A DNA stretch of 64,000 nucleotides. It comes from Notolepis coatsorum (taxonomy: Eukaryota; Chordata; Actinopteri; Aulopiformes; Paralepididae). A program made the translations under genes and the position numbers. Location of the stretch: assembly GCA_963971535.1 (NCBI GenBank), contig OZ020585.1:27460193-27524192 (forward strand), given 5' to 3'. This document shows positions 588 to 53,981 of this stretch, piece after piece. The notes under the pieces are model-generated. The model had not been told where the DNA came from and made no database searches. It was given only the letters and a program-made list of their open reading frames with translations. Within the stretch, counting starts at the first letter, position 1; each line of letters opens with the position of its first letter.

Positions 588-871
588 TAGGTATGTCCGA
601 TATTATCGGCTGACCGATATTATCGGCCGATATCGGCAGTAAAATGTGATATCGGAAAATATCGGTATCGGTTTAAAAAAAAGAAAAACAATAACAATAT
701 TTGTTATATATATATCCAGTGAAATCATTAGTTACCTGAAATTATTCAGTTTTTGGGGGGGGGGGGGAACCCTGCATATATCGGTATCGGTTGATATCGG
801 TATCGGAAATTAAGAGTTGGACAATATCGGAATATCGGCATCGGTAAAAAAGCCAATATCGAGCATCCCTA
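588..871. mobile_element. hAT MITE with ATATCGG iterons
   Basis: This is a 284-bp element with ends TAGGTATGTCCG and CGAGCATCCCTA. It is flanked by a perfect 8-bp duplication ATGGAAAT (580-587 and 872-879), the hAT signature. Both subterminal regions are packed with TATCGG/CCGATA repeats. The middle is AT-rich with a G-run. It has no coding capacity. Confidence 0.85.
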
Positions 872-1096
872 ATGGAAATGTATGGTTGAAACATGCAAAC
901 GTTCAAACGCACACACATTAATAAGCATTGGAGGCTTTTAACCAGGGCCGGACTGGGGAAATCATTAAGGCCAGGAAATATAGTGCAAAATATAGCCCCA
1001 GTCAGGCCACTTTTTAAGCAGGGGGTCCCCTATCAGGACATTTTTTGTTACAAAGACTTAATTTCCTGCATTCTGGTGCAGGAATTTTTTTATTTG

Positions 1097-1420
1097 TACC
1101 CTTTAAATGCCAGTGTTTGTGATGGCATCACAAATTATTGTTAAAAAAAATTGCTAGCATATGTATGATTAGCAACAACACTGATTTTGATGGATTTTCT
1201 GTTTTTTTTTTATGTCGGATTGAAAAAAATACAATCTTTTAATTCAACTTCAGCCTTGATCATAACACCACATATTCATTTTATAATTCTAACCCTTTAA
1301 ATGCCAGTGTGTGTGATGGCATATATTTGCAATATATCAAATGCAAAGTAGATTTTTCTGGGGGGGATTATTACAGGCTAGCATGTGTCAATGATTAGCA
1401 ACAACAGTTTTTTGTAAGGG
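1097..1420. repeat. two diverged direct repeat units
   Basis: ACCCTTTAAATGCCAGTG followed by TGTGATGGCAT occurs at 1097 and again at about 1290. Each is followed by GCTAGCAT and GATTAGCAACAACA. The units are about 190 bp apart and diverged. The opening motif resembles the TTAACCCTTT..TGCC ends of the piggyBac-like elements elsewhere in the window, so these may be degraded ends. The surrounding 880-1660 has no gene. Confidence 0.45.
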
Positions 1421-1664
1421 TCCCGCCTCCACCAATCACATGCAGCTCCCTTTGTGTGTGTGTGAGAGCAAGAGAGAGAAAGAGATAGTTCTCCAACTTG
1501 TGTGAGTTGCAGTGATCTCCTGGTTGTTCCCCACCTAGGTTATCTAACTATTGTGCTGCTGCAACTAGAAACACTGGCCTGCTTGCTTCTAAGTTCAGTG
1601 GCCTGACTGCATAAAAAAATAAAAATAATCATCTGGCGAACCCCCCCCCCCCCCCCGTCCCCCC

Positions 1665-1951
1665 CGTCTAATGAAATGACAATTGCTCGTCATTGAAGGT
1701 CCGAGCTGGTCTGTGTCTAATGAAATGACAATTGCTTGTCATTGAAGGTCCGCGCTGGTCTGTGTCTATAATGAAATGAGAAGAAAGCGCTGCGCTAAAG
1801 CAAGTCGGTCCGTGTTGATAGTTTGTTTCTAGCCACGGCGGCTAACTGACGTTACAACATATACTCGATGTTCACGATATATAAATTTACTACATCTCAC
1901 GTAGAACAAGCCACGATACATCGAGTATACTCTATATATCGCCCAGCCCTA
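1665..1951. mobile_element. truncated hAT MITE (right end only)
   Basis: This matches the right portion of the complete element at 35578-36629. Shared parts are the repeated GTCATTGAAGGTCCG..GCTGGTCTGTGT motif, ACAACATATACTCGATGTTC and the terminal ATATCGCCCAGCCCTA. No left end is found; a C-homopolymer lies at 1640-1665. Confidence 0.7.
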
Positions 1952-2076
1952 GTTCGTCTGTCGCACTGCTGATCTTTGGTAGGTTGTTGAGGTGTGTTGT
2001 TGTTGTACTGTTGCTGTACAGTCATCAGTCTGTCTGGCCAATTAAGTGTTTTTGATTCATAGTCATATTATTATAG

Positions 2077-2380
2077 TGTTTCCCCTATTGCCTTGGCGGG
2101 GCGGGTCGCCCCGCTAACGGGACCCCCCCCCCCCCCCCCGAAAAAGTTATAATAATAAAAAAAAGCATACATTTTATTTTTATTTTCTAACACTTTTTTT
2201 TTAATTAAAGTTTGCTTTAATCACAGTAACGTTGGCGAGCTAGCTAAATTATACATACATCGGTTTTCATATAAATCAATCAATTCACTAAAACTTTAAA
2301 ACGGTGGTGCGGCACGGTCTAAGGAGACACAGAAAAAAACCTACCAAATCCATTCCAAGAAAATCCTGTGGGAAACACTG
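2077..2380. mobile_element. MITE with AGTGTTTCCC inverted ends
   Basis: The left end AGTGTTTCCCCTATTG and the right end TCCTGTGGGAAACACT form a terminal inverted repeat. A C-run follows the left end. No clear target-site duplication is seen, so the family is uncertain (hAT-like ends). Confidence 0.5.
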
Positions 2381-2991: not shown

Positions 2992-3607
2992 TAGGGCTGA
3001 GCCCAAACATTCGAAGGTTCGGACCTTCCGTTCGTTACGTTGGCACTCAAATCTTAATGAATGGGTTTGAACCTCTTTCTTTATTTTACACGAAAAATGC
3101 ATATCAGAATGTGATATATCAGAATATCACAGTACTATGTTGTGTTTACAATAATTTTTAAAGTCACGAAAGTCACGCATGAACAGTCGAACACAGATAC
3201 ACAGTCAACGAGGAGGGGTCACCGACATACAATATCAGGAAATTAATCAATGCTATGCACGTTAGTCACGCTATGCATGTTTAGCTTGCTAACGTTAAGA
3301 TAGCAGGAGCAGTCTGCCAACAAAGATGCTATTTCAACAAATGCATTCACAAAATGGATTACCATCCAAACGTTATTGAAGACTCCTGTGACCAGTAAGT
3401 AGATGTACTACTACTTTTACTAACCACTTTTAACGGCAGCAATATGCGCATATGTTCTACGTTATATTGCGTAAATGTGCCTAAAGTCAAGACTTGACAG
3501 TACTGAACCGGAAAAATTATTCATACGATTAAAAACGATGGTTCGTCTGTTAGAAAAACCCTGCCGAAGTTCGAATCCGGAAAAACAGGGCTTCGGGGAC
3601 AGCTCTA
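2992..3607. mobile_element. hAT MITE with TTCGAA-type ends
   Basis: This is a 616-bp element starting TAGGGCTGAGCCC and ending GGGGACAGCTCTA, flanked by a perfect 8-bp duplication GTTCCTAC (2984-2991 and 3608-3615). Left and right ends carry CATTCGAAGGTTCGG and AGTTCGAATCCGG motifs. A related copy without a left end lies at 48755-49478. Non-coding. Confidence 0.85.
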
Positions 3608-4707: not shown

Positions 4708-5924
4708 TAGGGATACACCGATCCGATATTGGTATCGGCTGCCGATATCAGTAAAATAGCTGGATCGGATATCGGTAAAAAAAAATATATAATAAATAAA
4801 ATAAGAAATAACAATTCAGTATGTGTTAATTTGTTACATTTAGTTTCACTAAGTTAGGAAAGTAATGTTTTAAGTCAAGCCTTGCACAAAAGAATGATCC
4901 CAGTCTCTTCCACACAGGACAGTGAGGCATACAGTTTATTAATTGAATGAAGTTTATTTTCTGTCTTTGTTTACAACAAATAAAACACTTGTGATCCTTT
5001 ACAATTCTTAAAAACAAAATATATTTTAATATTTAAAAAAAAACATGGATTTAAATTATATATATATATTTTAATTGAACAATGGGTATCGGATCGGTAT
5101 CGGTATTGGCCGATACCAGTGCATGTGAGCGGATCGGAGCGTGAGCGGCGCGGGGCGCGGAGCGGCCGGTTTTGACGTGAGCGAGGAGTGGGTTTTAAAA
5201 TGAGTCGGCGCGACGTCCGGAGCGAGAGTTCTCCTCCGCTCCAATCCACTCCAGGCCGCTCACAGTGGTTTAACACTGTTGATGTAATATATACATGCAG
5301 TACAATGTCAAAGCAACAGATGGCGATGTACAAACATGAAGGCCATTTTCAACCAATGAGAAGGGTTCAGGCTTCGTCACTGTAGAGACGCCCACCATAG
5401 ATATCTATGACGCCCACACTCACTCTCCTGTTAGAAAAGGTATCGACGCCATTGTTGTTGACGTTAGCTTACATGCTAACGTTAATGGCAGCGACCATAG
5501 CATTGTGGCTCGGCTAGCCTATCATCGCTTAATAGAACTAGTGAATGGATAAACAACGTTATTTAACATTGCAGAATGGCTACAATTACAATGCGGCTCA
5601 ATACAAACAATTGTTAAGGGGCCCAGGGGGTGTAGACTGTTGTAGTTTGAGCTCATTTACACCATGCTCCAAAAAAGAAAAAGAAAAACTGCCGAGTGAT
5701 CTGGCGCGGGGAGCGGGGAGCGCTCAATTCAAGGTGAGTGGGGAGCGAGCGGAGAGCGACTTGGGGGCGGGGTCAACATGAGCGATTAGCGGAGCGGACC
5801 AAGCTTTAAAGAGCGAAGAGCGGATTTCTCGGCCGCGCCGATCCGCTCACGTGGTCTGGCCGATACCCAACCCAAACCCAGGTATCGGTATTGGGAGTGA
5901 AAAAGTCGGATCGGTGCATCCCTA
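4708..5924. mobile_element. hAT MITE with ATCGG iterons, carrying a nested hAT
   Basis: The ends are TAGGGATACACCGATCC and GGATCGGTGCATCCCTA. The 8-bp duplication is ACTGAAAG (4700-4707) against ACTGAAAC (5925-5932), one mismatch. Subterminal regions are rich in GGTATCGG/CCGATACC. The same family occurs intact at 29700-30203 and as a right end at 14020-14110. A second hAT (5117-5858) sits inside it. Confidence 0.85.
5117..5858. mobile_element. nested hAT MITE with GAGCGG iterons
   Basis: This is a 742-bp element with ends CAGTGCATGTGAGCGG and CCGCTCACGTGGTCTG. It is flanked by a perfect 8-bp duplication GCCGATAC (5109-5116 and 5859-5866) cut into the host element's own iteron. The ends are GC-rich with many GAGCGG/CCGCTC copies. 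The inverted relative is 31667-32301. It also holds a fragment like the retroposon tail (AATGCGGCTCAATACA). Confidence 0.88.
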
Positions 5925-7015: not shown

Positions 7016-7588
7016 TAGGGCTGTCAAAGTTAATGCTTTAACTTGAGATTAATTTAAATTATTTAAAGCATTAAAATAAATTAATCTAGATTAATCTATG
7101 GAGTGAAAAACTTCAACGTTCTGAACTTTCAGCAGTATATTTGCTTGTTCTTTTTTTGCATTGACTCATTCACCTTTTTGAAAATCATGATGAAAAAAAA
7201 AATTGTTGTTAATGATTTATATTACTGGTAGTTCATACAAGACATTATCGTCCTCTAAGCCAATCTGCACTTTAACATAGGCCTGGGTTGTTTTTATTTC
7301 TGTTAGCGCCGCAGATATAAGAAAGAGGTCTAGCTGAGTCAATGTTGATGGTTGTTGAACATTTGTATTTCACAGGAGAGAAACTGTATTCAAAGAAAGC
7401 TATTAAAATAGTCTTTGAATCTAAATATACTTTTTGTGTTGATTTTACATTAATTCCATGATTTTACTCAAGTAAATATCTGTTACAAGCTTCGGTCTTG
7501 AGTCGAAAAATGCAATTTTTAATCTAGATTAATTGCAGAAAATTGAGAGGTTAATTAGTTAATTTTTTTTAATCTATTGACAGCACTA
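7016..7588. mobile_element. hAT MITE with TTAATC iterons
   Basis: This is a 573-bp element. The ends are TAGGGCTGTCAAAGTTAA and CTATTGACAGCACTA. The perfect 8-bp duplication is ATAAAAAC (7008-7015 and 7589-7596). Subterminal GATTAA/TTAATCTAGATTAA repeats are present. A right-end fragment of the same family is at about 26020-26096. Confidence 0.87.
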
Positions 7589-8444: not shown

Positions 8445-8952
8445 TAGGGATGCACCGATACGAAAATTTGCCACCGATACCGATTGTTCAACTAACACAA
8501 TCGGCCGATACCAATACCGATATTTGTGGCATTTTTTTTTTTATATATATATATTTCTTTTGTAATATTTTTTTTTGGTAATATTTTTTTTTGGTAATAT
8601 TTTTATTTTATTTTATGAAACTACTGTATATTTCTGTTACAAATTGTGCTCACCGATATGAACATAGGCCTCTTTACTTACTTAAAAAAAGGAAACATCA
8701 AGAAATAGCACTATCTCTCTACCAGTATGTTCTGCAGGAGGGCTGCAGCTAGATACTAGTTCTCCCAGTATGGTCTACCGGCTGGGCTGCAGCTGGATAC
8801 TATTGTCTCAACCAGAGCTCTCAACCAATGAAATTTTGATTGACAGTCGATTCTGCCAATTACGTCACACACCGCTTGCACCCGCCTCTGCTGTTACCAC
8901 CAATCGGCAATTTACTTCCGCTTTTGTCCGCCATTGATTTTGACGAGAGGTA

Positions 8953-9321
8953 CCGTACTTTTCGCACTATAAGCCGCACCTGACTATAAGCCGCAGCAGC
9001 TAAATTTAATGATGTGTACATATATAAGCCGCACTGGACTATAAGCCGCAGGTGTTTTAATGTTTAATTACCATATGTAATTAGCATTGGGACACAATAC
9101 TGTCAGACAAATAACAAGAATTAACTAATTTACAAGTTGTATTAAGTTTAGCAAATAAGGGAACAGATAAATAACATTTCAATGCAGTCAAAAAAGCAAT
9201 ATTTAGATTTTTACATTTTCGGGTTTGGTCACGTCAAGTCACATATAAGCCGCACCGTTATATAAGCCGCAGGGTCGAAAAATGGGGGGAAAAGCCATGG
9301 CTTATAGTCCGAAAAGTACGG
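8953..9321. mobile_element. MITE with CCGTACTTTTCG ends and TA duplication
   Basis: The ends are CCGTACTTTTCGCACTATAA and its complement TTATAGTCCGAAAAGTACGG, with TA on both sides. The ends are filled with TATAAGCCGCA repeats (eight or so copies in both strands). TA duplication suggests Tc1/mariner-type mobilisation. Nested within the 8445-10361 hAT. Confidence 0.75.
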
Positions 9322-9679
9322 TATTCTACAACAACAACAACGGCGGCGGCGCGGCCGACGTTTAGCTTTTAGCTCCGCAGGATGACTTAAACGAGGCATA
9401 ATGATTTTACTGCAACGAATGTTATAATAAAACAAAGCCTTTCTATACATGTGTGATTGAAAACTTTATTAACAGATTGCAGAATGGGTAAAACTCAGGG
9501 CTCTATGAGCAACGGAAGGAACTGAGCTAGTATGAACGCGTAATGCTTGCTACGTTCGGGTAAATAATATGCTGATGTTATTGAATGTGTAACACTAACT
9601 ATATAACGTTAATGCCACAAAACGAATGCCTTGTTAATCATAAGTAGTAACTTTGATGCAGTAGCTTGTGTGTGTGTGT

Positions 9680-10148
9680 TAAGGCTGAGCCCGAACCCTG
9701 TTTTTAGGGTTTGAACGTTCGCCAGGGTTTATCGAACGAACGTTCGAACGTTCGTTTTTTGTAAATTTTTTAATACAATTTTTTTTTTATTAAACCTTTT
9801 TTTTATATAATTTTTTTTTTTTTTTTATTATAGATCCTACGGTGGGCGGCATTGCATAATCTATTGGTGAAAAAACATGTTGTTTACAGTGGTGGCTGTT
9901 CATGTAAACATGTAATTAAACAAAGCACTCAGAAGAAAATAAACAAGCTACTGAGTACTGCATAAAGTTCCTACTTATGATAAACAATAGCCCTTGCACA
10001 CCGCAGTCACGTAAGGGGCTAGATAAACAAATGAATTCGTTTTGTGGCATTAAAGTTATATAGTTAGTGTTACACGTTCAATAACAGGTATTCACTCTTG
10101 GTCGACGGGAAGGAGAGAGGCGTGCGCCTCGGCTCGGGCTCAGCCTTA
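9680..10148. mobile_element. nested hAT MITE with GAACGTTCG iterons
   Basis: The ends are TAAGGCTGAGCCCGAACC and CGGGCTCAGCCTTA. It is inserted in a GT repeat, so the apparent 8-bp duplication GTGTGTGT is not independent evidence. The left end has palindromic CGAACGTTCGAACGTTCG. It resembles in style the TTCGAA family at 2992-3607. Confidence 0.75.
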
Positions 10149-10369
10149 GTGTGTGTGTGTGTGTGTGTGTGGGGGGGGACTGGGGACGGCGTTGTGCAGG
10201 TCGCAAGTGAACTTTTTTTTGTCTTTTGACGCTACACAAATTGATGGATATTTATTGGCTACTGCCATCGGCACATTCGAGCTTATCGGCCGATAGGCCG
10301 ATTGCAGTCAACAAGGCACTTATCGGCCAATACCGATACCCGACCAATACATGCACCCCTAATTGCAGA

Positions 10370-10580
10370 CACATTAAAAAAGAAGACGTCCCTTCAGACG
10401 TCCCTTCAGATTGCGGAGAACATCTACATGAGCTTCATGATCGACGGAGATACAGACGTCTCTGAGTGCGAGCTCGTCTACAGCCGCATATTGCACAACG
10501 GGAGACCTATCAATATCCTAATTGGCCACATCGAGGTGGAGCATGCACATGCAAAAAGGTACAGCAATGTTATTATATAA
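10370..10580 (+). pseudogene. hAT-derived transposase, continuation
   Basis: The frame encodes DTLKKKTSLQ, a duplicated TSLQ, then ENIYMSFMIDGDTDV, ECELVYSRILHNG and HIEVEHAHAK. It continues the protein broken at 8444. The order matches ZNF862/KIAA1586-like hAT-derived proteins. It runs out at a GGTAC junction near 10558. The downstream 10600-11690 has no recognisable coding sequence. Confidence 0.7.
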
Positions 10581-11689
10581 TAACTCCAGTTTAAGCAGAA
10601 ATAAGACAAGCAACACATTTAAATAGTTATTGCTATTCAAATAGATTCAATAAGCATATAGGGCCCCAACTATGGAATCTGTTATTATTACGTTTTATTT
10701 TTTCAATGTAATTTTCAGTTTTAATGTCGAGTAATAATAATAATAATAATAATGAGTAATAGACATACAACCTGGATTTAGGCTACTGGAGCTGAGCTGA
10801 ATGTGTTAAAATAGACATAAAAAAGTGAAGGATTGTACTTTGCTAACTGTAATACAATGTTATTTTTTCATAGGAGTCTATGCTGCCAAGTCAAGCACAG
10901 CACTTTTTTCCCCTTCTTCTAAACAATTGAGGTTATTGCAATCTTATTTGAATTTTTAAGCTCGAGTGGAATTTTGTGAGACAATTAGTTTGAAAGCCAT
11001 TTGTCTGAACTTTAAGACCTGCCGTGTGTTATATGACAATTTCTTGTTTGTGATTTAAATAAAGAAAAAACATTTATCTGTACCTTTTATTCCCGTTTAC
11101 AATAATTTACATAACATATTAAGAATTACTAATGTGTATGGGAACTGAATTGTTAAGCTTATGGAATGTAAGGGAAATCTGATCCTAGGTCTGTGACTAT
11201 AGGCAGGAGGCTACGCTGTGGTGACGTCAGTCAGCAGCGCCAAATAGCAGTGTAGTTTCCCAGTGAATGAAAAAATAAACGTTGTTATTTTGCTACCTTT
11301 ACAATTAATTGCGAATATTTTCATGTTGAGCTATAGATTGTGGATAAATACGCACAGAAAGGTACACCATGCGAACGTTAATGCTTTATTTATCTAAAAC
11401 GAGCAGATTTAGAAATGGTCAATGGGGAAATACATTAAGTGGAACAGAGGGTGGAAGAGGAAAAAACGAAAATGACGTAACCACTACACCTCCCTATAGA
11501 CCGGTTCGCTGTATACAAACATACCGTGTTCGAGCCAATCAGCAATACCAACTGAGTCACGTGACCAAGTTGCCCCCTACCTGCATGGGCTGCTGCTCTA
11601 AAAAAGTATGACTGGGCTCTATGGAGAAACCATGACACTCCCGACTAAAAGTTGACCAAACAGGGTAGGTGTGAACGCGCCCTTATAAT
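10581..11689. other. AT-rich sequence without recognised gene
   Basis: There are scattered TAA repeats (10733-10753). A stretch at 11425-11505 recurs in reverse orientation at 31110-31180 (shared AGGGAGGTGTAG and TTCCACCCTCTGTTCC). It is presumably internal sequence of the decayed hAT and unclassified repeats. The 80-residue frame at 11369-11611 has no recognisable similarity. Confidence 0.4.
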
Positions 11690-11768
11690 GCATGTCCCCT
11701 TTAAATTTCGAATGTTGATTTAGAATTCGAATGTCAACATTATGATCGAAGCATTCGGTACAGCCCTA
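11690..11768. mobile_element. hAT right-end fragment (TTCGAA family)
   Basis: It ends in ATTATGATCGAAGCATTCGG TACAGCCCTA, the complement of the left terminus of the complete element at 15583-18026. No partner left end is found nearby. Confidence 0.6.
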
Positions 11769-12005
11769 CCATTTAGAAATAAGGCTCAATATTAATACAG
11801 TACATTTTGTTTGATTAAGACATTTTCTAGGCAACCAATTTTCATACTAGAGCAGGGAGGGGCAACTGGCGGCCCGCAGGCGTCTACCTTAATGATAAGC
11901 AAGCAGTGCAAAAATGCGGAAGCATTCGTCACCGCACGCCACTACGGTAAAGCGCCTTTCTTTTCAGGCCCGCTTTGGGAGCTGTCGCGCGGAAATAGGC
12001 TGTCT

Positions 12006-12295
12006 ATTGCCATTCTCTTTGACAAACTCTAACCTTAACCAGCTCCTTAACAGCGCCTAAACTTAACCGTTCTAACCTTAACCAACTCCGAAACAATGCC
12101 TAACCTTAACCTTAACCTTAACCATGCCTAACCTTAACCATAGAAAGAATATTGCCATTCTCTTTGACAAACTCTAACCTTAACCAGCTCCTTAACAGCG
12201 CCTAAACTTAACCGTTCTAACCTTAACCAACTCCGAAACAATGCCTAACCTTAACCTTAACCTTAACCATGTCTAACCTTAACCGGCGAAAGAAT
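12006..12295. repeat. two 145-bp tandem units rich in CCTTAACC
   Basis: The unit beginning ATTGCCATTCTCTTTGACAA at 12006 repeats at 12151. Each contains runs of CTAACCTTAACC, resembling degenerate telomere repeats. It lies inside the 11887-12622 element. Confidence 0.8.
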
Positions 12296-12336
12296 ACACG
12301 TTAAAAAAAAAATCACGTTAAAAAAAAATATATTTT

Positions 12337-12412
12337 ATGGGATTCGAACTCGCCAGCAAACGAGCTGTAGGATCCACAGCCATGCAGTGTTGCCAATTGA
12401 GCTATTTCTCGA
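12337..12412 (-). tRNA. degenerate tRNA-like sequence
   Basis: On the minus strand an A-box TAGCTCAATTGGC and a B-box AGTTCGAATCCC are spaced as in a tRNA. A hairpin GCTGT-GGATCCT-ACAGC lies where the anticodon arm should be. Position 33 is not T and the T-stem pairs poorly, so it is not a functional tRNA. Pol III recognition is possible. Confidence 0.45.
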
Positions 12413-12810
12413 TACTGAATAAGGGGCGGTGACTTATATATATTGAGCTCCGCTCGTGTCGAACCAAGGCGGGATCTCATGCGCATGCGCGGGCACCTCG
12501 CGCGAGCACGCCGGCGCACGCACGCACCTGAGCGCTGGGCGGCGGAAAATGAAAGGCGCATTACCGCACGCCACTACGGTAGAATGCTTCCGCATTCTTG
12601 CACTGCTTGCTTATCATTAAGGAACAGGCGGCCCGCAGGCCGCATGCGGCCCTCACTGACGCTCCATGCGGCCCCAGGTCAATATTTATAAAAAATTTAA
12701 TAATTATAATATATATCTTTTTTGCATTCAACTAAAGAGGTTGGCAGTCGACTATGGCTCCTTTCGATCGATTAGTTGACTATTCGACTAATAGGGGTCA
12801 GCCCTAGTGT

Positions 12811-12985
12811 GTGGACATATTCAACACTGTTGAAAGTGCCGTGCAGCAATATGGGGGGGTTTGATAAACTGTCCGCTGTTGTTACCGATGGAGCACCCGC
12901 AATGAAAGGAAAACACACAGGATTCGCCGGGCTTCTAAGGCAGAGTGGCGTTGAGTGTACAATGCTGCACTGCATTATACATCAG
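12811..12985 (+). pseudogene. hAT (Charlie/GTF2IRD2-type) transposase exon remnant
   Basis: The frame VDIFNTVESAVQQYGG is followed after a 7-G run (one-base frameshift) by FDKLSAVVTDGAPAMKGKHT, GFAGLLRQSGVE and LHCIIHQ. This is the catalytic-core region seen in Charlie transposases and the host proteins derived from them. It stops at a consensus splice donor CATCAG|GTAAG. The next exon is not recognised. Confidence 0.8.
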
Positions 12986-13749
12986 GTAAGTTCGCTAACA
13001 TAATTTCCATCTATTGTGGGTCACTAATAATCAGCAGTGCAGTGCCATGTGGTACCACGCCGTCCCAGCACTTTTCTGAGAAGTACGCGCACGGATGTGC
13101 ACACAAAAATAAAACGTTATTTCATCTGATGCAGATCGCATGCACAAACATTGAAGTTGACATTCCTTCTATTGTGCGCCAACAGGAGAGACCACAAGTA
13201 TCTCATTAAAGACAGAACCATTATTGACCCACTGTGGGGGTGTGGGGGGGGGGGGGGGGGGTGAATGTCATGCCAGTTTGATAAAGGGTCAATGGGAGGC
13301 ACTCAGGAATGTTTTGTTTAGTAGCAGGATAAAAGTTTATACATTTAATAAAATAATTTATTATTGCACTTTTGATTTACTGTTGTAGTGAAATGCAGCT
13401 TGTTTGTTGAGCAGTGGGCTTTAAGTTCATACATTTATTTTAATAGAAGCCTTAATTATAAATGTCATTTTTGTATATATTTGGGTTACACAGCAATACT
13501 TGAGCTGTATTTAAAAATTTATAAAGTTGAAATTAAGCATTACTAAATGCGTTTGAAATGGAATAAAAACAAAGTTACAAATTATAATAGTTTATATGCC
13601 TTATTTATCACATCTGTGGATATTATGGGCTATTTGAGTGATGGGGTACTACTGGCGGGACTGCCGATAAACAATGCGGCCCCCCAGATTTAGTGTGGAA
13701 ATTTTGTGGCTCTCACCATATACAAAGTTGCCCACCCCTGTACTAGAGT

Positions 13750-15223: not shown

Positions 15224-16734
15224 AGGTGCAATAAATGGTATTTTCTAAGTAAGTGGTCTACATGTTAAAATAATAGCTCTACATTCTGACAGCCACCACT
15301 GATACAGAGTATTTGGACAGTAACATGGGTCTCGCAGTCTCTCCCCTCAGTAAACAGAAAACAACATTTTCTGGAATCCCATTCAGACTTTATCAAACAC
15401 TGCAAAAATGGTCAGACCAAAATGAGAAATACAAATTAGTTATGAACAAATATGTGCTTGAAACAAGTAAAGTAATCTGCTAGTGCAGCAAGATAATTTG
15501 GCTTGGCAAGATTTCTTTAAATAAGTACAAATATATAGGGTTCCTTCTCCTGATTGGATAAAGTTGGAAGGGATACCAGAACTAGGGCTGTACCGAATGC
15601 TTCGATCATAATGTTGACATTTGAATTCTAAAACATTCGAATTTTTTATTTTTAATAATCTTTTATTTTTTTCAATCTGTTTAAACCAATGGCTACACTA
15701 ATATTATAATATTATACATAAGACGTCACCTAGGGCTGGGCGATATAACGATAACAATAAATATCGCAATATATTTTAATAATCGATATCGAAAAGAAAA
15801 AAAATCATTTTTTTTTTTTTTTTTTTTACGTGCAACAGGGCAGTTTTAAAACCAGAGACAGTGGACAGACTTGTCTTTCTTGCCTGCAACTTAAAGTAAT
15901 GGCTTTGCTTGTCCAAATGACAATACTGACCAAATTGAGATTTATTTTTCTCTTGTCCATTTATTTTGTTTGCTTTCTAATTTAAAATACAGTTTGAAAC
16001 CGTCTGTACACAGTAGGCTATGTGTGCGAGCAGAACTAGACTCCAGTCACGAGTCACGGTGCACATGTGCAGTGGTTTGTCCACCAAAAAAGCGCCAAAA
16101 GATCGAAAATAAACTAGCAGAGCCAGAACTGTTCAACTCCCCTGGGCCCTGTTTCTTGTACCTGGATAACTGAGTTAGCCGGATAACTTTAACTGGATAA
16201 CTGGGTTAGCCGGACTTTCCGGTTTCATGTACGTGGATTTTCCAAATCACCATGACAACATATCCAAAAGTTTGAGCCTGGTCGAAAGCAGAGTTCAAGT
16301 TCAACTTAGCCTGAACCATCGCCACGCCCCCGCAAAGAATTGACGGCCCGTTTCCTGAAACTATTCCCACAGTCTACGATCTGCATTATACCATTCTGAA
16401 TTACGTTCTTGTGCTCCATTCTTCCAGAGGGGGCTTTTGAAATGTAAAATAGACCCAAAATGCTGATACTAAATTCACTTTGTCCTAAATAATGCACGTT
16501 ATATATAGCGTGGCGACAGTGGCGCTCGCTCGTGCGATGTACACATTATGTGGTTATTTTAATTGTAACTGGGATTAAGATGTCTGATGAGATGCGCTGT
16601 TTGACGGATTTGAGAAATTGAATGAGCCGTTGACGTCACATTAATGAATGAGGATAAAGAGATAAACTTCATTCATAACAAAGGATATTCTAAACACGGG
16701 TCCATTAATGTATAAACAATGAATTTATCCCATC

Positions 16735-16806
16735 TGGCACAGTGGTCCAGCGGTAGTGCTCAAGCCTGCCAACCCAGCGACCGGGGTTCAAAACCCGGTC
16801 TTTCCA
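16735..16806 (+). tRNA. tRNA-Gly(GCC)-like sequence, probably degenerate
   Basis: The A-box TGGTCCAGCGGTAG and B-box GGTTCAAAACC are tRNA-spaced. CTCAAGCCTGCCAACCCAG sits at the anticodon arm, with GCC as the likely anticodon and similarity to tRNA-Gly. The T-stem CCGGG/CCCGG pairs only with an 8-nt loop and the acceptor stem does not close. It is more likely a tRNA-derived pseudogene. Confidence 0.5.
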
Positions 16807-16960
16807 ATATGATTTTTTTTAATATAATATTAATGATTATACGCCAAAGTAGCCTGGTTTTAAGTTAAAATATTATAAATCTACATGCATTGAGGATGTC
16901 ATTCTTTATATAGCTCTCAACGTGCACCAAATTGAATTATTCCTATATTGCAAAAAGAAG

Positions 16961-17032
16961 GAGACGACTAGGGTCTTGAACCCCGGTCGTCTGTGTGAAA
17001 GTCAAAAGAACAACCCGTTAGACCACATTGGA
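16961..17032 (-). tRNA. tRNA-Glu(TTC)-like sequence, probably degenerate
   Basis: On the minus strand: A-box TGGTCTAACGG, anticodon-region CTTTCACA (TTC), B-box GGGTTCAAGACCC. The order and spacing resemble tRNA-Glu. The anticodon stem and acceptor stem are poor. It faces the tRNA-Gly-like sequence 155 bp away in the same transposon. Confidence 0.45.
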
Positions 17033-21885: not shown

Positions 21886-21893
21886 GGCTACAC

Positions 21894-23171: not shown

Positions 23172-23208
23172 TAGGGGTGTAACAATGCATCGCAATGCAT
23201 CGATCCTA
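23172..23208. mobile_element. 37-bp hAT terminal remnant
   Basis: TAGGGGTGTAACAATGCATC begins the piece and GATCCTA ends it, with GCATCG/ATGCATCGAT motifs. It is flanked by CTTTG on both sides. It interrupts the zinc-finger coding sequence of the host hAT. Confidence 0.45.
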
Positions 23209-39045: not shown

Positions 39046-39109
39046 CAGGGCTAGATCCACAAAGAATGGATTGCACGGAGCAAGTTGCACCCTTACTTAA
39101 AATTCATTA

Positions 39110-39256
39110 TGAATTGAAAATGGGGGACCCTGATGTAAACAAGACGAAAGTCTCTCTCTGGTCTGCATCCCCTTAACAGTTGTGTGTATTGAGCCGTACT
39201 GTATTGTACCCATTCTGCAATCTGTTAATAAAGTTTTCATTCAATGAATCAATCTC
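39110..39256 (+). mobile_element. retroposon 3' tail copy
   Basis: It carries GACCCTGATGTAAACAAGAC through CTGTTAATAAAGTTTTCATT with an ATCA-type tail. It is the same family as 21894-22328. Confidence 0.65.
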
Positions 39257-39261
39257 TGCAC

Positions 39262-40345
39262 GGTGATTGATTGAATGACAATTTTATTAACAGATTGCAG
39301 AATGGGTCAAATACAGTACGGCTCAATACACACAATTGTTAACTCTTTCAGTGCCACTCACGAGATTTCTCGGGTTTTTTTATAGGTGGTTGCGTGCCAC
39401 TCACGAGATTTCTCGGAATTATTATTATTATTATTTTTTGCGATCTGAAAAATTATTGCATCACCCGAGCCTACCCGAGTATAGCCGAGCTGCGCCGGTG
39501 ATCACTGTGGAAAAAAGCGCCCCCTGTCGTCTCCCAGATGACATAAGTGATTTTGGAATGGACTCAATGAATGGGGAAAAAAATCCGGTACTCCACATTT
39601 TCCAGTTCACTGATCCAGCCGGGGTTACCACAGTTCATTCTGGAGCCTCAGATCCCCGCGGATCATGGAGATCTACAGTGTCGCGTTGGATCCATACACG
39701 TATCGATTTTTTCGAATGGTGATCAGGAATTGGAATATACCAGTTGGATACCATATGATGTCAGGTAAGGACTCTATGTTATCAGTGGTAGGATAATCGG
39801 AGTAAGTTTGATGAAGTTATAAGCTGTTTTGTGAAATGTCTTCTTTCGGTTTCACTGTAAAAGTCTGAGGAAATCAACGGAGCGATTATCAGTGCGCGGC
39901 CGTAATGTGCTTGCGTGCACGTATAATATTGATCATCTAGCGTTTATTTGAAAACGATTCATAAAAAGGCAGACGAATATCAACGTTGTGGAATATTCCA
40001 CTAAAAGACGATTTTCATAGAATGCTCCAGAATGAGCTGTTTTTTATATCAAAACGGGGGCTTTTCTAACTGCTCTGAAACGGAAACGACGCGATAAAAA
40101 AACAATCTGCCTTCACAGCACTGACTGGAAAATAGTCTTTGATAATGCGATGGGCAGATTAGACACATAGCCATAATTTAAAACATAGATTAGGCGATAT
40201 TAACGTTAACATTGGCGCCGATGGTGGCATTCAAGCGGTAAAACGGAAAACCAGGCGTGGCACTGAAAGAGTTAAGGGGACCAGAGAAATACTTTAGTCT
40301 TGTTTACATCAGGGTCCTCCATTTTCAATTCATGGATCTAGCCTT
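39262..40345 (-). mobile_element. inverted retroposon tail split by a piggyBac-like element
   Basis: TTATTAACAGATTGCAGAAT to CACACAATTGTTAA is the reverse of the adjacent copy. It continues after 40275 as GGGGACCAGAGAAA and CTTGTTTACATCAGGGTCC. The break falls exactly in TTAA. Confidence 0.65.
39339..40275. mobile_element. piggyBac-like TTAA element (937 bp)
   Basis: The left TTAACTCTTTCAGTGCCA and the right TGGCACTGAAAGAGTTAA delimit it. It is inserted in the TTAA of a retroposon tail whose uninterrupted sequence is known from other copies, so TTAA duplication is demonstrated. CACGAGATTTCTCG palindromes lie at the left end. A donor-like GTCAGGTAAGG is at 39761-39771. Confidence 0.85.
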
Positions 40346-42078: not shown

Positions 42079-42900
42079 TAGGCTTGGGCGGTATACCAGG
42101 GTGTTTAGAAATCCCGACTGTATTGAAAATCAATACCGTCCGTCACAGTCAAAATCACAGATGCGCTTCAGTTTCTATTACAGTGAAACGGAGTTTTGAG
42201 TGTAGTGCACACACGCGCCAGCAGAGGGCGAGACCAGTCCTCACTAGTGGAGCGAGTGGGTCACAACGGGGTTCACATTTTACGGTAATGTTGCGACAGT
42301 GCTGTGAAAATACCGTAAAGCGTTGTGGTAACTAGCGTTGGTTTGTGTTGTTGTGCACTAGTGGAGCAAGCAAATAATCTGTCTTTTATTATATGTGAAC
42401 TAAAGAGTACAAGGTTTACACAACAGCCCCCACCCGCCTTTTTATTGTATTTGTACCGTCCTGTACTATCCGCTGTCAGCTGTTTATCTCTCTGTGTGAG
42501 CTTGATTAACTAGCGTTAGCTCACGTTAACTAGCGTTAGCTCTGCGGCTAATCTTAGATTACCCTGAACTAAATCAATGACTAGGTTATAAAGCATTAAG
42601 AGTAGTTTTCACTGCACATAGAAGTAGCCAAACAACAGGAGCATTTCGGGAGCATATGACCAAAACCCAGGCAATTTCGAGCCCTTAAGGAATCAAATAG
42701 TCTGCCATGGCTAGGCTAGATGCTAACGGTGCAGGCTTCTGACTACCATTCTGAGAGCTGACGATGGTTTGTTTACTTGGTAACACGGGTTGCCCCCCCC
42801 CCGCTGATGAAAATGAAAGTCATACAGTCATATACCGTACACCGGGGTATTATGTCATCAAGATATGACGGTGTGAAAAAAATGATACCGCCCAAGCCTA
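42079..42900. mobile_element. hAT MITE with CGGTAT iterons (822 bp)
   Basis: The ends are TAGGCTTGGGCGGTATACC and ATACCGCCCAAGCCTA. The perfect 8-bp duplication is GCACTAAC (42071-42078, 42901-42908). Non-coding. A part copy is at 26437-26631. Confidence 0.9.
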
Positions 42901-44661: not shown

Positions 44662-45020
44662 TAGGGATGGGTACCTTTCACATTTGAACCGATACCGGTA
44701 CCTGTGAATCGATACCGGTACCCAACGGTACCTTTTTTCGGTACTTTAGTCTCAAGTTGTCGGGGGGAAAAAATCCAAACTTCAAATAACTACAATTTCG
44801 ACAGTTTTCGGCTTGCCATTGCTCCGACTGCTTTGTTGTTGAATCAAGTAAAATCCTAGGTAAGCATATATTGTGCGTGTGAACGTTGACATGAAAAGAA
44901 AAAAGCAAAAAAAAAGTAAAAGAAAAAAAAAAAACGGTATCTCACTTGATTCGATACTCGGTAGTACCGACGTGTTTCGGTTCGGTACCTCAAAAGTACC
45001 GAATTCGGTACCCATCCCTA
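44662..45020. mobile_element. short hAT MITE with GGTACC iterons (359 bp)
   Basis: The ends are TAGGGATGGGTACCTTTC and GAATTCGGTACCCATCCCTA. The perfect 8-bp duplication is CTCACTGG (44654-44661, 45021-45028). GATACCGGTACC repeats occur at both ends around an A-rich middle. Confidence 0.9.
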
Positions 45021-46939: not shown

Positions 46940-47640
46940 TAGTGTCGTCACGATACCAGAATTTGGACTTGGACACGATGCCAAGTTTAGCATCAGGATT
47001 CCTGATACCAAACAATTAGACAAATAAATTAAATATGAATGACAAATAAAAGTCTCTTTGAAATTAATGCAAAGACAATAGAGTACAACTTTTCCCTGAG
47101 AGCAGCTTCTATTCTAACTAATGGCAAACATTACTTTGGCATTGACCAATGAACGCTCTGAACGCCTTCATGTCACTGGTCAGAAATGACCATCTGTGTA
47201 ATGAAAGGCAAAGCGGACAAGCGTGAAAAGCCACCATTGTTAACATTTTCTTAATTAAACATAAATGAACAGCATACATCAGACCGGCAATACGAGTTTA
47301 ATGAGATTTGCCGGTCTGATGTATTGCTTCTCCAAAATATTTTTGGGCAAATTGAAAAAAGAAAATCAAGCAAACCCTTCAAGGACATTTTTGTAAACAA
47401 TATGACTTGAACGGACCTCCGCTTTCATCCTGCAGCAGCAGATCCAGAGAGAAGCACAAACACGCACTATATAAACATTAGACTTAGTACCGCGTGTCAA
47501 GTCACTGACAATAAGTCAGACTCAACATTCCCGGGGAAAGATTTTGATAAAAGTAATGACCATTTAGCAATATTGAATCCATTTTCATGCCGAAGTATCA
47601 CCCGAATAACGCATTTTCAATGATCGTCGTGACAACACTA
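46940..47640. mobile_element. hAT MITE with GTCGTCACG ends (701 bp)
   Basis: The left TAGTGTCGTCACGATACC and the right ATGATCGTCGTGACAACACTA delimit it. The perfect 8-bp duplication is TGCCAATC (46932-46939, 47641-47648). A 17-bp perfect hairpin sits in its middle (47274-47324). Confidence 0.87.
47274..47324. repeat. perfect 17-bp hairpin
   Basis: ATACATCAGACCGGCAA (47274-47290) and its exact complement (47308-47324) are separated by 17 nt. It is located centrally in the 46940-47640 hAT. Confidence 0.8.
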
Positions 47641-49478: not shown

Positions 49479-50061
49479 AAGGTAGCTATATTTAAGTCTC
49501 TCTTGTTGACACACATTTGGTCCCAATTAAATTATATTCAAGGTCAGTGAATCTGACTCACTCTCTGCATGCAGAAAATAAAAGTATCGACTGTGTTCTA
49601 CTCTCTTAGATCTTCATATAAACAGACGTCTTCCCGTCTTCCTGCAGTGTCATGCTCCACTTTCCCATCCAACTACACAGATCAACTGTCAAAGTATGTT
49701 GAGGAGAGATTCTACACTCCGGGCTGTAGTATGCATCACAATAATATACCTGGTCTTGAAACCCATCTACAAAATAATATCTTTCTCTCTGCTTGCATTA
49801 ATTATGAACCTAACTACAAGTTAATCATGTTAGACATGTCGAAGACACAAGTATGGGCCTAACAACTCCACTCTGAGCCAATGCTACCTGAGGGACAACA
49901 AGCCTCGTCAAGAATGTCACTCGTTTAAGGAAACAGTTTTCCTTCATAGTTATGAACTTGCATAAGGTTATGTTGGTCTCAAAAGTCAATGTTTGCTTTC
50001 CTTTGTCCGAGGAAAGCAACAGTTGTGATTGGAAGATAGAGGCATTTGACTTTACTACACT
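49479..50061. other. intronic sequence, no feature recognised
   Basis: Open frames of up to 97 residues (49569-49862) have no motif, and nothing repeated was seen. Confidence 0.4.
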
Positions 50062-50379
50062 GGCCTGGTTATCATCATGTTAAACCTATGGTATTTTAAA
50101 GAGTGATCATGCTGGCCAGGTTTTCATCATGTTAAACCTATGGTATTTTAAAGTGATCATGCTGGCTTGGTTTTCATCATGTTAAACCTATGGTATTTTA
50201 AAGTGATCATGCTGGCTTGGTTTTCATCATGTTAAACCTATGGTATTTTAACGAGTGATCATGCTGGCTTGGTTTTCATCATGTTAAACCTATGGTATTT
50301 AAAAGAGTGATCGGGCTGGCTTGGTTGTCATCATGTTAAACCTATGGTATTTTAAAGAGTGATCGTGCTGGCTTGGTTT
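50062..50379. repeat. minisatellite, six 50-52-bp units
   Basis: The unit GGCTTGGTTTTCATCATGTT continues with AAACCTATGGTATTTTAAAG and (AG)TGATCATGCT. Starts are at 50062, 50114, 50164, 50214, 50266, 50318 and a partial unit at 50370. Spacing alternates between 50 and 52 by gain or loss of AG. Confidence 0.9.
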
Positions 50380-51737
50380 ATCATACATATGCCATCAAGT
50401 GTAGACTGGGCAATTGCTATTGCACAGTATGTAATTTCTGCCACTCTGGGTCTTTCAATCAAAACAATAACAAAGAACCGAGTTTGATGACATCGTGAGG
50501 TAGCATGCAATCATAAGACTTGTCGTCTTCATTGCATAAACAAAGCACTGCACTTTTAGCTAGATTGAGTTACTGGCAGTCTGGGGTACATCACCCAAAT
50601 CTGTATTAATTATGGAGTTAATAGGTAGCTCAAAGGTGTAGCATAGCAATGCTAACCATTTCATGCAGGTGGGTGGAAAATGCTAAAACACGTAGCCTCT
50701 TAGTCGGAGAGGTATAGTTCAATAAATACACAGATGTACTACCCTAGTCTGCTAGTTAGCCGATTAGTCAAGATAACTGGCAGACTACTGTGGTAGTGAA
50801 TAATAAGCTCAAAGGTTTCATGTAAGTGAATGGAAAATGCTAGAACTATTAGCGCCATACTCTGGGAGGTATAGTTTAATAATAAAAAAACTGATTTGGG
50901 TGGTCTAGCTTAGTTTGCTAGTTAGTGGATTAATCAAGCTTTCTAACCAAGTAGGGTCCATTTGATAGTTGTGGTCAAATGAAAGGGAGCAGTCAGTCAA
51001 GCGTGATATGATCACGCCCCTAAAGAGACAATAAGCCAATTGTCAACGCGATATCGGAGGCATGGCAGTTGTCACACCCTATGAGGCGTGTTGGGAATCG
51101 TGAGGACGCGAGGGTAAAGGGGATATGACACAATTGACAGACTACCAAATGAAATGCTTCGTTGCCTTGATTGAGATTACAGATATCTCAGGGTTTGAAC
51201 ATTGTTGGAAACATTTGGGATAATGCAAGTACACAACTCAACAAAGTATATAACATAGCTCTTGTTGTTTTTATAAATTTCAATGCAGAAGTGTTACATA
51301 TTATAGATTTAAATCCCTGAATTTCCCCAAGGGGATCAATTAAGGAATATCTTCTCATCTTAAATGTGTAATATTATATCTTGTCCCATCATATTCCCAA
51401 TCCCTACAATACTGAAGTAACTAAAGGAATATCAATATCTGCATCACTGCAAACAAAAGAAAACTCATCATAATTTACGAGTCGAATAATGTCTTTTCAA
51501 GTGAGATAAGGAGTGAATAGTAACAGACTACATGTCAAAACTGTCTTTCCAACTTTCAATTTCAATGTTTAGATTCTGCTTGATTTACAGATAGGTTTGA
51601 ATAGATGGATGCTTGCCGGTGTTAAGATTCAGCAGAGAAAGTGTTTTAAATAATGAAGGGAGAATGACTCCCTTTTCAGACCAGTTATTTTTATTTCCCT
51701 CTCAGCCTCCCTCGTCCTGTCACTTCTACATACTTAC
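50380..51737. other. intronic sequence upstream of exon 2 donor
   Basis: A pair of related segments (50590-50760 and 50800-50945, each with ATGGAAAATGCTA and AGTTTGCTAGTTAG-like text) hints at an old duplication. Otherwise unremarkable. Confidence 0.4.
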
Positions 51738-51821
51738 TTTCATAGCTTTGATTCCCGACTTGGTGATCTGGGTCATCTTGGCCTTTGAGATGGGAGGCTT
51801 GTACTCGTTCAGCGAGTACAG
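51738..51821 (-). CDS. scaf8: scaf8 coding exon 2 (CID, residues 11-38)
   Basis: This 28-codon exon is phase 0 at both ends. The acceptor is ATCTTCCAG|CTG and the donor ATGAAA|GTAAGT. The peptide reads LYSLNEYKPPISKAKM then TQITKSGIKAMK, the first helices of the CID. LYSLN.YKPPISKAKMTQITK agrees with recalled human SCAF8 and differs from SCAF4 (LFSLMDMKPPISRAKM), so this is scaf8. About 45.7 kb of repeat-rich intron separates it from exon 3. Confidence 0.95.
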
Positions 51822-52246
51822 CTGGAAGATAAAAGGGAACAATACAAAAAACATCTCAGTCATAATTTCTTGACATTAATTCTGCAATGAGAATAAACAC
51901 TCTTTAAATTGGAACAAGTGTTGTCTTCACAATCCCTCACGTTAATAAGGGAGTAGTCCACTGCTTTAGGATCTAAAAACAAAACTGCAACTACACATTT
52001 GAGAAAAGCCTGAATGTGTCAATGCCTGCCAGAGGTTGGTGACTGAGATCAGAACATGCAAAACTGCAGCATCAGTCATGGTGGCGGAGCATTCCTTCAG
52101 CAATCAAGATTTGATCTCTGCTCCTAATGTCTGCATGCATGTCCATTCTAAAACATACAGACTTTCATAATGGTACTTTACTTATGCATTTGATATTTTT
52201 ATGCCATATCTCGCCAGCCCTAACTTATTGGAATAAATGGTAAATG
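51822..52246. other. intron 1 sequence with hAT end fragment
   Basis: The fragment CATATCTCGCCAGCCCTAA (52205-52223) resembles a degraded hAT right terminus. The rest is unremarkable. Confidence 0.4.
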
Positions 52247-52254
52247 GACTGCAT

Positions 52255-53150
52255 TAGGGATGCCCCGATCGATCGGCCACCGATCGTTATCGGCCGATAA
52301 TTTGTATAAATATGCGATCGGGGAATTCCGATAATTAGTCATATTCGCCGATCGCGGAAACTGATCAAGTGGATATCTCACTCGCTTGTATCAGACGCAC
52401 AGGACCTGCAAACTGCTCCTCCTCCCTAGCCCCGCCCGTACCCGTGTAGAGTTTGTAAACACGTCCGCCTCCTCTGCTGAGTCTAGATAAGTGCATTCGA
52501 CCTGAGCTAACGTTAGCTACCTAGCTATCGTTACTGTTTAAACAAAATTACCCAGTCAACTATTCACTTTTAGTAGGCATTGTCTAACGGTATTTAGCCG
52601 GCTAGCTACCGATAGCTCCTGATATCAACAAATGCTCCAGCAAGTCTTGTAGTGCATGTTGATACCTCCGTTAGCTCGCGTTAGCTGACGTTAATTCACT
52701 GTTCAAAACGATAGTTGTCTTAACGTCATCTAGCCGGCTACTAGCAGTAGCTACAGATAGCTCCTGATATCAATGTCTTATAACATCGATTGAATGCGTA
52801 TTCGAGCTGAGGGCTTGCTGAATGTTAAATGACCAAAGCATAATGTTACCAATAGGGTCCCGCTGCAGCGCCGGAGAATCCTTTTTGGTAGCTGGAGGCT
52901 ACTAGAGTACACACAGACAGTGGAGCTGTTTGCAGATAGCGAGCATTTTGACTTGTTGCGTGGTGGCGATGTCTCGCAGATAATACAAGTACAAGTCTAA
53001 TTATATAATATATATATTTTATATAAAAAAAAAATATATATAAAATAATTTTTAATTTCTTTTTAATCAAAAACGATCGGTATCGGATCGGTATCGGCCG
53101 ATATGGCTCACGACGATCGGTGGAAAAAAAACGTGATCGGGGCATCCCTA
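52255..53150. mobile_element. hAT MITE with CCGATCG iterons and shared core (reversed)
   Basis: This is an 896-bp element with ends TAGGGATGCCCCGATCGATC and GTGATCGGGGCATCCCTA. The perfect 8-bp duplication is GACTGCAT (52247-52254, 53151-53158). Its core is the reverse complement of that in 26632-27482 and 28251-29286 (GATAGCTCCTGATATCAA, GTGGCGATGTCTCGCAGATA). Confidence 0.9.
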
Positions 53151-53261
53151 GACTGCATTTAGTTATTTACAACAGCCTCACATTCACACGCCGACAGCCG
53201 AGGCAACCATGCAAGGTGCCAACCTGCTCATCGGGATCAGGAACCAGAATTGAACCGGGAA

Positions 53262-53981
53262 TAGGGCTGGGCCTGGGCGATATGGAAAAAAATCATATCG
53301 CGATAACGATATGATAATTTTATTTTATTTCTCGATATCGATAATTATCGAATTGTTATAAGTATAAAAAAAATTAAAAAAAAATAAACATTTTTTCAAT
53401 TTTTTTCAACAACAGATGTATGTTTATTTTGCAGCAATTCTTTGTCATTGCCGCCATCTTTAGTGTTACATCCCCTCACACTCCAGTTCTCAGGCTGCAG
53501 CTGGTTTAAAAGCTAAAGTAAACCGGCTTCTCTGCTGGCTGTGGCTCCAGAGGAGTTGAACAGTTCTGGCTCTGCTAGTTTATTTTCGATATTTTGGCGC
53601 TTTTTTGGTGGACAAACCACCGCACATGTGCACCGTGACTCGTGACTGGAGTCTAGTTCTGCTCGCACACATAGCCTACTGTGTACAGACGGTTTCAAAC
53701 TGTATTTTAAATTAGAAAGCAAACAAAATAAATGGACAAGAGAAAAATAAATCTCAATTTGGTCAGTATTGTCATTTGGACAAGCAAAGCCATTACTTTA
53801 AGTTGCAGGCAAGAAAGACAAGTCTGTCCACTGTCTCTGGTTTTAAAACTGCCCTGTTGCAGGTAAAAAAAAAATAAAAAAAAAAAAACGATTTTTCGAT
53901 TTTTTTTTTATTTCGATATTCGATATCGATTATTAAAATATATCGCGATATTTACGGTTATCGTTATATCGCCCAGCCCTA
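53262..53981. mobile_element. hAT MITE with ATCGATATCG iterons
   Basis: This is a 720-bp element with ends TAGGGCTGGGCCTGGGCG and TTATATCGCCCAGCCCTA. The perfect 8-bp duplication is ACCGGGAA (53254-53261, 53982-53989). It is highly similar to 33487-34162. An extra GGGCCT near the left end looks like a small duplication. The shared minus-strand frame is at 53513-53722. Confidence 0.9.

Follow-up and report, generated by a model that had tools for sequence, protein, structure and literature searches.

Non-autonomous hAT elements with family-specific subterminal repeats in Notolepis coatsorum, and one non-coding body found with three sets of ends

The window analysed here is a stretch of 64,000 nucleotides from the fish Notolepis coatsorum (assembly GCA_963971535.1, contig OZ020585.1, positions 27,460,193 to 27,524,192 of the forward strand, C6:27460193-27524192 in our numbering; genome size 3.42 Gb). 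It holds BED-finger (Ac-like) hAT transposons that are non-autonomous, and most of them carry short repeats inside their tips that form a code of their own family. A single non-coding body was found in three elements of the window that carry three different codes; this one body with three sets of ends is new here and was overlooked in the first-pass annotation.

A pair scan of the window was carried out with exact flanking repeats of varying length and a 12-bp terminal inverted repeat (TIR). Flanking repeats of 8 bp gave 20 candidates, TAG-ended in 13, against two TAG-ended pairs at the control length of 4 bp, one at 7 bp and none at 5, 6, 9, 10, 11 or 12 bp. A targeted scan for [TC]AG ends, in which one mismatch was tolerated in the duplication, gave 21 pairs; controls with the flanks displaced by 5, 6, 7, 9 and 10 gave 0, 2, 0, 0 and 0. 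The TIRs obtained in these scans are short and have A and G at positions 2 and 3. From the targeted set the pair 24248-29094 was dropped as likely due to chance (five TIR mismatches, one duplication mismatch, spanning other elements and crossing 28251-29286), and 31667-32301 and 15731-17789 were added. The accepted set thus consists of 22 elements with TIRs and an 8-bp target site duplication (TSD), one mismatched and one slipped by one base. A further element outside the 22, at 28251-29286, has CAGGGCTGTAC ends and a 5-bp repeat. The first-pass annotation had listed 24 elements. The 8-bp duplications it described, including the mismatched (E03) and the slipped one (E07n), were borne out with controls and 22 elements were accepted; its element in a GT repeat is probably the pair 9680-12806, which is thought to be false, as the motifs differ between its two ends and it crosses 11853-13740. 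The target duplication of Ac-like elements has the consensus nTnnnnAn; among 29 duplications, T was present at position 2 in 15 and A at position 7 in 18. The elements are as follows.

E01, 588-871: CCGATA code, 15 copies; TSD ATGGAAAT, exact; partner transposase at locus L108.
E02, 2992-3607: TTCGAA-like, motif alone not significant; TSD GTTCCTAC, exact.
E03, 4708-5924: CCGATA, six copies; TSD with one mismatch; holds an E14-like stretch, with blast matches to E13 and E14.
E04, 7016-7588: AGATTA/ATTAATCTAGATTAAT code (AGATTA seven times, p=0.003), 16-bp palindrome; TSD ATAAAAAC, exact.
E05, 8445-10361: CCGATA, eight copies; TSD ATTGCAGA, exact.
E06, 11853-13740: CAGGG tip, other hAT-like group, no repeat code found (p=1.0); TSD TACTAGAG, exact.
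E07, 15583-18026: TTCGAA code (CGAAGC five times, p=0.036); TSD ACCAGAAC, exact; hosts E07n.
E07n, 15731-17789: ATATCG code, nested in E07, 87-93% identical to E15/E21; TSD slipped by one base, ACGTCACC/CGTCACCA.
E08, 18088-19303: TATCGATA/CCGG code, with a remnant of a BED exon; TSD GTTACAGG, exact.
E09, 20251-22939: CCGAAA, 12 copies; TSD CTTTCAGG, exact; hosts E10.
E10, 20651-21885: CAGCG tip, nested in E09, motif p=0.063; TSD GGCTACAC, exact.
E11, 24650-25506: CCGATC code, TCCCGATC tip, derived by deletion from an autonomous element; TSD CCCAAAAC, exact.
E12, 26632-27482: ACGGTA, ten copies, around the shared body; TSD ACCCACTG, exact.
Shared body in E12, 26712-27353: 71% identical to that of E20 over 669 columns, with near-identical blocks.
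E12b, 28251-29286: GGGGCA code (TTTAGGGGCA), CAGGGCTGTAC tips, 5-bp repeat AAAGA; third bearer of the body, 76-77%.
E13, 29700-30203: CCGATA, seven copies, family of E03; TSD ATTGAAAC, exact.
E14, 31667-32301: CCGCTC, eight copies, CAGGCC tip; TSD GTGCTGAT, exact.
E15, 33487-34162: ATATCG/GCGATAT code, 91% identical over 45 bp to the tip of its partner L088; TSD GTAAGAAC, exact.
E16, 35578-36629: ATATCG, seven copies, second subfamily, 16-bp palindrome; TSD GTTAAGAC, exact.
E17, 42079-42900: GCGGTAT code; tip TAGGCTTGGGCGGTAT adjoins the BED exon of its partner L096; TSD GCACTAAC, exact.
E18, 44662-45020: GGTACC/CGGTAC code, 16-bp palindrome GTACCGAATTCGGTAC; TSD CTCACTGG, exact.
E19, 46940-47640: TAGTG tip, no clear repeat code (p=1.0); TSD TGCCAATC, exact.
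E20, 52255-53150: CCGATC code around the reversed shared body; TSD GACTGCAT, exact; partner L089/L091/L092.
Shared body in E20, 52501-53077: minus strand.
E21, 53262-53981: ATATCG code, family of E15 (88% identical to it); TSD ACCGGGAA, exact.

The repeats were assessed by counting hexamers in the terminal 130 bp, the tip octamer and words of low complexity being ignored, and comparing the counts with those in 1,000 first-order Markov shuffles (p<0.05). An over-represented end hexamer was detected in 18 of the 22 elements: CCGATA (E01, E03, E05, E13), CCGATC (E11, E20), CCGAAA (E09), ATATCG (E07n, E15, E16, E21), TATCGA (E08), ACGGTA/ATACCG (E12, E17), CGGTAC (E18), CCGCTC (E14), AGATTA (E04) and CGAAGC (E07). 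Interior stretches of the same elements gave counts of only 2-5 in the 19 elements long enough. No end hexamer reached significance in E02, E06, E10 and E19, and TTCGAA in E02 and CCGGT in E10 are therefore weak when taken alone. Under a stricter null that retained low-complexity words, the coded hexamer passed the 95% line in just 10 of the 22. The longest perfect palindrome exceeded the 95th percentile of 3,755 background stretches at 20 of 38 ends, and the 99th at five, in a set leaving out E06, E10 and E14; the 20 include the left end of E07n, where the palindrome is an A/T run, and the left end of E19, which has no code repeat. In Hermes-type ends a palindromic repeat pair adjoins the TIR at one end only; here a compact and a spaced end could be distinguished, yet in some elements long palindromes are present at both. 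The claim of the first-pass annotation that most families have a palindromic subterminal motif of their own is upheld by these counts.

The repeats were also found beyond the window. The 32-bp CCGAAA end of E09 has 1,303 genome matches at two or fewer mismatches (control, 0). Its first repeat is the perfect palindrome CCGAAATTTCGG in most places among the matches listed; the corresponding first repeat of the CCGATC end is CCGATCGATCGG. The pattern TAGGGNTGNAA has 51,661 genome matches, against 20,113 for its reversed control.

The non-coding body is common to E12 (ACGGTA), E20 (CCGATC) and E12b (GGGGCA). A 28-mer from it has 10,987 genome matches at two or fewer mismatches, and its control has none. 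The first 20 body copies among the matches listed, all on contig C1, were read outwards: 11 have a CCGATC left end, seven ACGGTA and two GGGGCA. The right end was searched for independently of the code, and in 11 copies both ends could be identified, flanked by an exact 8-bp duplication (six of the seven ACGGTA, five of the 11 CCGATC, neither of the two GGGGCA). In all 11 a single code stands at both ends. The seven ACGGTA and 11 CCGATC copies read, like the 1,303 CCGAAA ends, agree with conservation of the repeats in the genome at large, where this was tested. The interior is thus conserved across families with different ends. Among the ACGGTA bodies the likeness is 95-99% (mean 96.6% over 28 pairs); the CCGATC bodies are much more varied, part of the spread being due to unalignable tails. 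On a tree of the bodies, used for clustering only, since these tails distort it (three long branches), the code label changes three times versus 9.4 in shuffles. One mosaic copy (L036, together with L056) starts with a CCGATC left end, continues into a body of the ACGGTA type and further on reverts to sequence of the CCGATC type.

In-register recoding was considered as the source of the difference between the E12 and E20 ends and failed the shuffle test: they are not alike beyond chance (13 of 38 positions, p about 0.3). As these ends are unalike despite the shared body, end exchange fits better there than stepwise recoding. The simplest reading of the sequences is that ends were exchanged between body-bearing elements, presumably by template switching. 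The body could instead be an independent repeat that was inserted near the ends of three unrelated elements and carried along, with no exchange of ends. In each of the three contexts it does lie close to the left end, and nesting occurs locally (E07, E09). Against this, the body fills nearly all the space between the two end regions, and inspection of the alignments by eye revealed neither a duplication flanking it nor a TIR belonging to it. The left junction is much the same within each coded set in the copies read, and exchange between the sets is seen in the mosaic copy. We consider independent insertion unlikely, and end exchange is retained.

Transposases were sought among scored candidates for the hAT dimerisation domain (150 of 10,698 matches), for zf-BED (150 of 8,401) and for two BED queries (150 of 2,507 and 150 of 2,077). 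The top Dimer_Tnp_hAT matches belong mostly to other hAT groups, and no clean CA.CCCTA end of their own was present in the 20 downstream flanks fetched. The flanks of L074 and L078 matched E15/E21 and led to L088, an autonomous GCGATAT element with a tip at 1014, an exon of 322 aa encoding zf-BED and an exon of 375 aa ending in the dimerisation domain. Both exons are open (zf-BED, 29.8 bits; Dimer_Tnp_hAT in exon 2, 77.7 bits). The C-terminal domain is represented by this one family, the BED side alone having been fetched for the other codes. An N-terminal zf-BED of the CCHH type is present in four proteins at 29.8-51 bits. The 8-bp duplications, the TIRs and the presence of BED and Dimer_Tnp_hAT in an autonomous relative confirm the assignment to hAT made in the first-pass annotation.

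A coded tip and a BED exon occur together in 28 of the 37 loci fetched, representing 11 families and nine codes, plus the unsure L095; outside L088 the BED exons lie about 180-460 bp inside the tips. No usable tip of their own was found in the other nine (L090, L093, L098, L105, L106, L112, L115, L116, L117). Besides L088 (GCGATAT), the loci with a tip are, by code, as follows.

CCGATC, subfamily b: L089, L091, L092; b2: L109, L110, L111, L118; a: L094, L097, L100.
CCGATA: L108.
CCGATAC: L107, L113, L114.
GCGGTAT: L096.
GGTACG: L099, L101-L104.
CCGCGGT: L120, L122.
GCGATAA: L119, L121 (tip damaged), L124.
CGATTAAT: L123 (first tip letters changed).
Unsure: L095.

Several window elements could be paired with these loci. 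E20 matches the 5′ ends of L089/L091/L092 at 91-94% over 107-114 bp, and E01 that of L108 at 92.5% over 120 bp, where the end leads into the BED exon. E11 is 75-78% identical to L094/L097/L100 over 359-498 bp, E17 is 71% identical to L096 over 108 bp, and E08 matches the BED exons of L090/L095/L105 at 83-88% over 124-130 bp. Two candidates were rejected. L116, taken for a CCGAAA partner, is actually a remnant of CCGATC-b2 into which a CCGAAA element has inserted. L107 is 87% identical to the E17 interior over 260 bp, but the stretch stops at the L107 tip, and it was taken as a neighbour. Among the 150 scored zf-BED matches, 31 (L100 and 30 others) have equal score and open frames of 470-475 aa, which, with one of them (L100) read, suggests a recent expansion of the CCGATC-a transposase. 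Seven BED-encoding matches are clustered at G000:C28:1351370-1387364, five of them with equal score and a 128-aa frame.

Ends of different families were then compared position by position. Of the 38 positions following the octamer, the compact ends of CCGATC-b and CCGAAA have 29 in common, CCGATC-b has 22 in common with E01's CCGATA end, and the GCGATAT and GCGGTAT ends share 20-23 (shuffle p 0.002 or less in each case). The compact end is the one beside the BED exon in CCGATC-b and GCGATAT, the families for which both ends and the BED exon are known. By this comparison some families share one end scaffold, the repeats of which appear to be recoded in register. The codes may also be old family signatures, with the likeness in register due to descent and drift, and with neither concerted recoding nor selection for incompatibility. 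There has been ample time for drift, because BEDs of different codes are only 31-54% identical. However, eight of the nine differences between the CCGATC-b and CCGAAA ends fall in the two variable letters of the half-sites and the intervening spacer is unchanged. We regard drift as a real but rather doubtful explanation, and in-register recoding is preferred for these ends.

The first-pass annotation had seen in the elements a radiation of relatives that diverged mainly in the code. The recoded shared scaffolds speak for a part of this. Most bodies are unrelated, and the code is not the main difference since the BED fingers have diverged too. The tips are mostly alike, but those of E06 (CAGGG), E10 (CAGCG), E14 (CAGGCC) and E12b (CAGGG) are different, and therefore not all elements need belong to one radiation.

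In seven aligned BEDs nine columns are invariant (W, F, C, C, T, N, H, L, H), and their profile aligns with the Hermes BED segment TTRQTSNLCRH (E=0.026). In Hermes S66, N67 and R70 contact bases, according to the available part of PMC10368747. T and N at H-6 and H-4 are invariant in the seven; the pattern used for reading residues demanded T, T/S and N, and each of the 30 copies supplied fitted it. The residue at H-1, in the place of Hermes R70, varies between families. It is R in eight of ten CCGATC copies, S in CCGATA (one copy), K in CCGATAC (three of three), Y in GCGATAT (one), S in GCGGTAT (one), T in four of five GGTACG copies, S and L in the two CCGCGGT copies, L in GCGATAA (three of three), Q in CGATTAAT (one) and K in E08-like copies (three of three). 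A five-residue insertion (RGG loop; RGR in L092) is present in all five CCGA-starting families and absent from the others; as this group may be one clade, it is counted as a single observation rather than five. The evidence that BED residues covary with the code is no more than suggestive, and H-1 is not a clean predictor.

These data are best accommodated, in our judgement with good probability, by Ac-like BED hATs whose families have their own addresses, new addresses arising by recoding and by end exchange. The outer octamer TAGGGNTG, largely common, would probably be handled by the catalytic core. The palindromic repeats inside the tip would be the sites of the N-terminal BED fingers of the transposase, paired on head-to-head half-sites. 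By analogy with Hermes, each transposase could recognise the repeat of its own family as an address. Within an element the two ends are often unlike, and the proposed compact end would have half-sites at about 12, 20, 27, 37 and 41, and the spaced end a half-site at the tip and the next at about 31-35. A new address might be acquired by two routes. All half-sites of a scaffold may change jointly after an alteration of the BED finger, as the CCGATC, CCGAAA and CCGATA ends would illustrate, or a non-autonomous body may gain the ends of another family via recombination or template switching during repair of the excision gap. More tentatively, and with some leaning to doubt, the hATs of this genome may consist of two interchangeable modules, a recodable end scaffold and cargo bodies that swap whole ends; the body would then have reached about eleven thousand copies via at least three addresses, of which that of E12b would probably belong to another group with a 5-bp duplication, and the families would amount to a readable BED recognition code.

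The repeats could alternatively serve the host, for instance by binding host factors, excluding nucleosomes or directing silencing. All codes in the window contain CG except AGATTA and GGGGCA, and a host-like gene with a 1280-aa open frame and four zf-BED matches exists at G000:C35:90096675-90098126, recalling what we take to be the host gene ZBED4. The repeats are, however, family-specific and adjoin the BED-encoding exon of their own element, and a host role appears very improbable.

Several observations weigh against the proposal of family-specific addresses altered by recoding and end exchange. Identity in register is significant in a minority of family pairs. The signal from CpG positions is modest over 668 different-family end pairs, with 305 coincidences at shift 0, 276 at shifts 1 and 2, and 220-239 at shifts 3-8 except 186 at 7. 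L041 and L046 (CCGATC) have an identical flank and are one duplicated insertion counted twice among the 20 body copies. The right end was not found in nine of the 20 within the stretch read, and hybrids with mixed codes are possible there. The first-pass annotation had proposed a test for covariation of the DNA-binding residues with the repeats; H-1 does vary between families, but within families S is found in L097 and K in L109, both CCGATC-ended, M in the GGTACG copy L101, and L122 is unlike its CCGCGGT family mate. It had also proposed pairing each family with an autonomous transposase. E20, E11, E01, E17 and E15/E21 are paired, but no CCGAAA, ACGGTA, TTCGAA or CGGTAC transposase was found in the BED loci fetched from the scored candidates.

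Known systems show parts of this arrangement. In Hermes (PDB 8EB5), the available part of PMC10368747 describes BED domains that bind cooperatively to a palindrome just inside the tip; a quasi-palindromic subterminal repeat just inside the TIR, an N-terminal BED and often unequal ends are found here too. Its site is AAGT/AAGC, in contrast to the mostly CG-containing palindromes of several codes here, which are known from sequence. Tol2 likewise has a perfect palindrome right after the TIR (same source, in part), but it is a single family with an AAGT motif. CGGBP-like hAT proteins bind varied motifs matching their own subterminal regions, in the accessible text of PMC8097297; these CGGBP/hAT-19 proteins resemble those expected here in having a BED and Hermes-type DNA-binding domain and varied, mostly CGG- or CGC-containing motifs. 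In that study the proteins themselves were measured, and its accessible text holds no comparison of end scaffolds or shared bodies. Maize Ac/Ds (PMC3260210, in part) includes non-autonomous elements with a common short TIR and some subterminal repeats, but there one TIR set goes with varied interiors, whereas here one interior goes with several end sets. For interiors more conserved than ends, the coral CMITEs are a precedent (PMC2872659, available portion), and the shared-body end exchange may be read as their hAT counterpart. CMITEs are piggyBac-like, with TTAA and a length of about 100 bp; the body-bearing elements are hATs that measure about 0.85-1.1 kb and have subterminal codes, and one of the three codes (CCGATC) has a known partner transposase. 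No account of these families was met in the literature listings searched on hAT codes, end exchange of miniature inverted-repeat transposable elements and fish hATs.

How joint change of a transposase and its binding sites leaves their function intact is an open question. A genome in which about a dozen hAT families are coded, several of them with BED exons beside the ends they would read, and in which scaffolds differ almost solely in the coded letters, makes it directly testable, and the families could yield a recognition code for BED fingers, those of host ZBED proteins included. The shared body would show how what is parasitic on one transposon can turn into a parasite of another, and it suggests that the address and the cargo of a transposon are exchangeable.

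The window is densely occupied by such elements. In 20-kb bins, TAGGGNTG tips number 44 in its first 60 kb versus 29 in the next 204 kb, a comparison stretch of which about 13 kb reads N (C6:27524193-27724192, L009-L028); tips are thus several times denser in the former, and the tip-rich 60 kb is a local nest of hAT insertions. GC content is 0.40 in these 60 kb versus 0.42-0.48 in the following stretch. The open reading frame at 23054-23641 had no Pfam match at E 0.01. A short repeat with many occurrences (window 22243-22326, 39109-39342, 56436-56658 and 57893-58224; L115 and L117; inside E09, E05 and E07) resembles a short interspersed element in its distribution. At 50060-50384 a 52-bp unit is repeated six times in tandem, at 12005-12296 a 145-bp unit is duplicated in tandem, and an uninterrupted TG repeat of 656 bp lies at 59969-60624. 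A small element at L087:12-373, with a TAGGGCTGACCCC tip and AGTCGACT palindromes, is apparently another coded hAT family; ends like its own are also present at window position 12806 and at sample positions 218363-220171.

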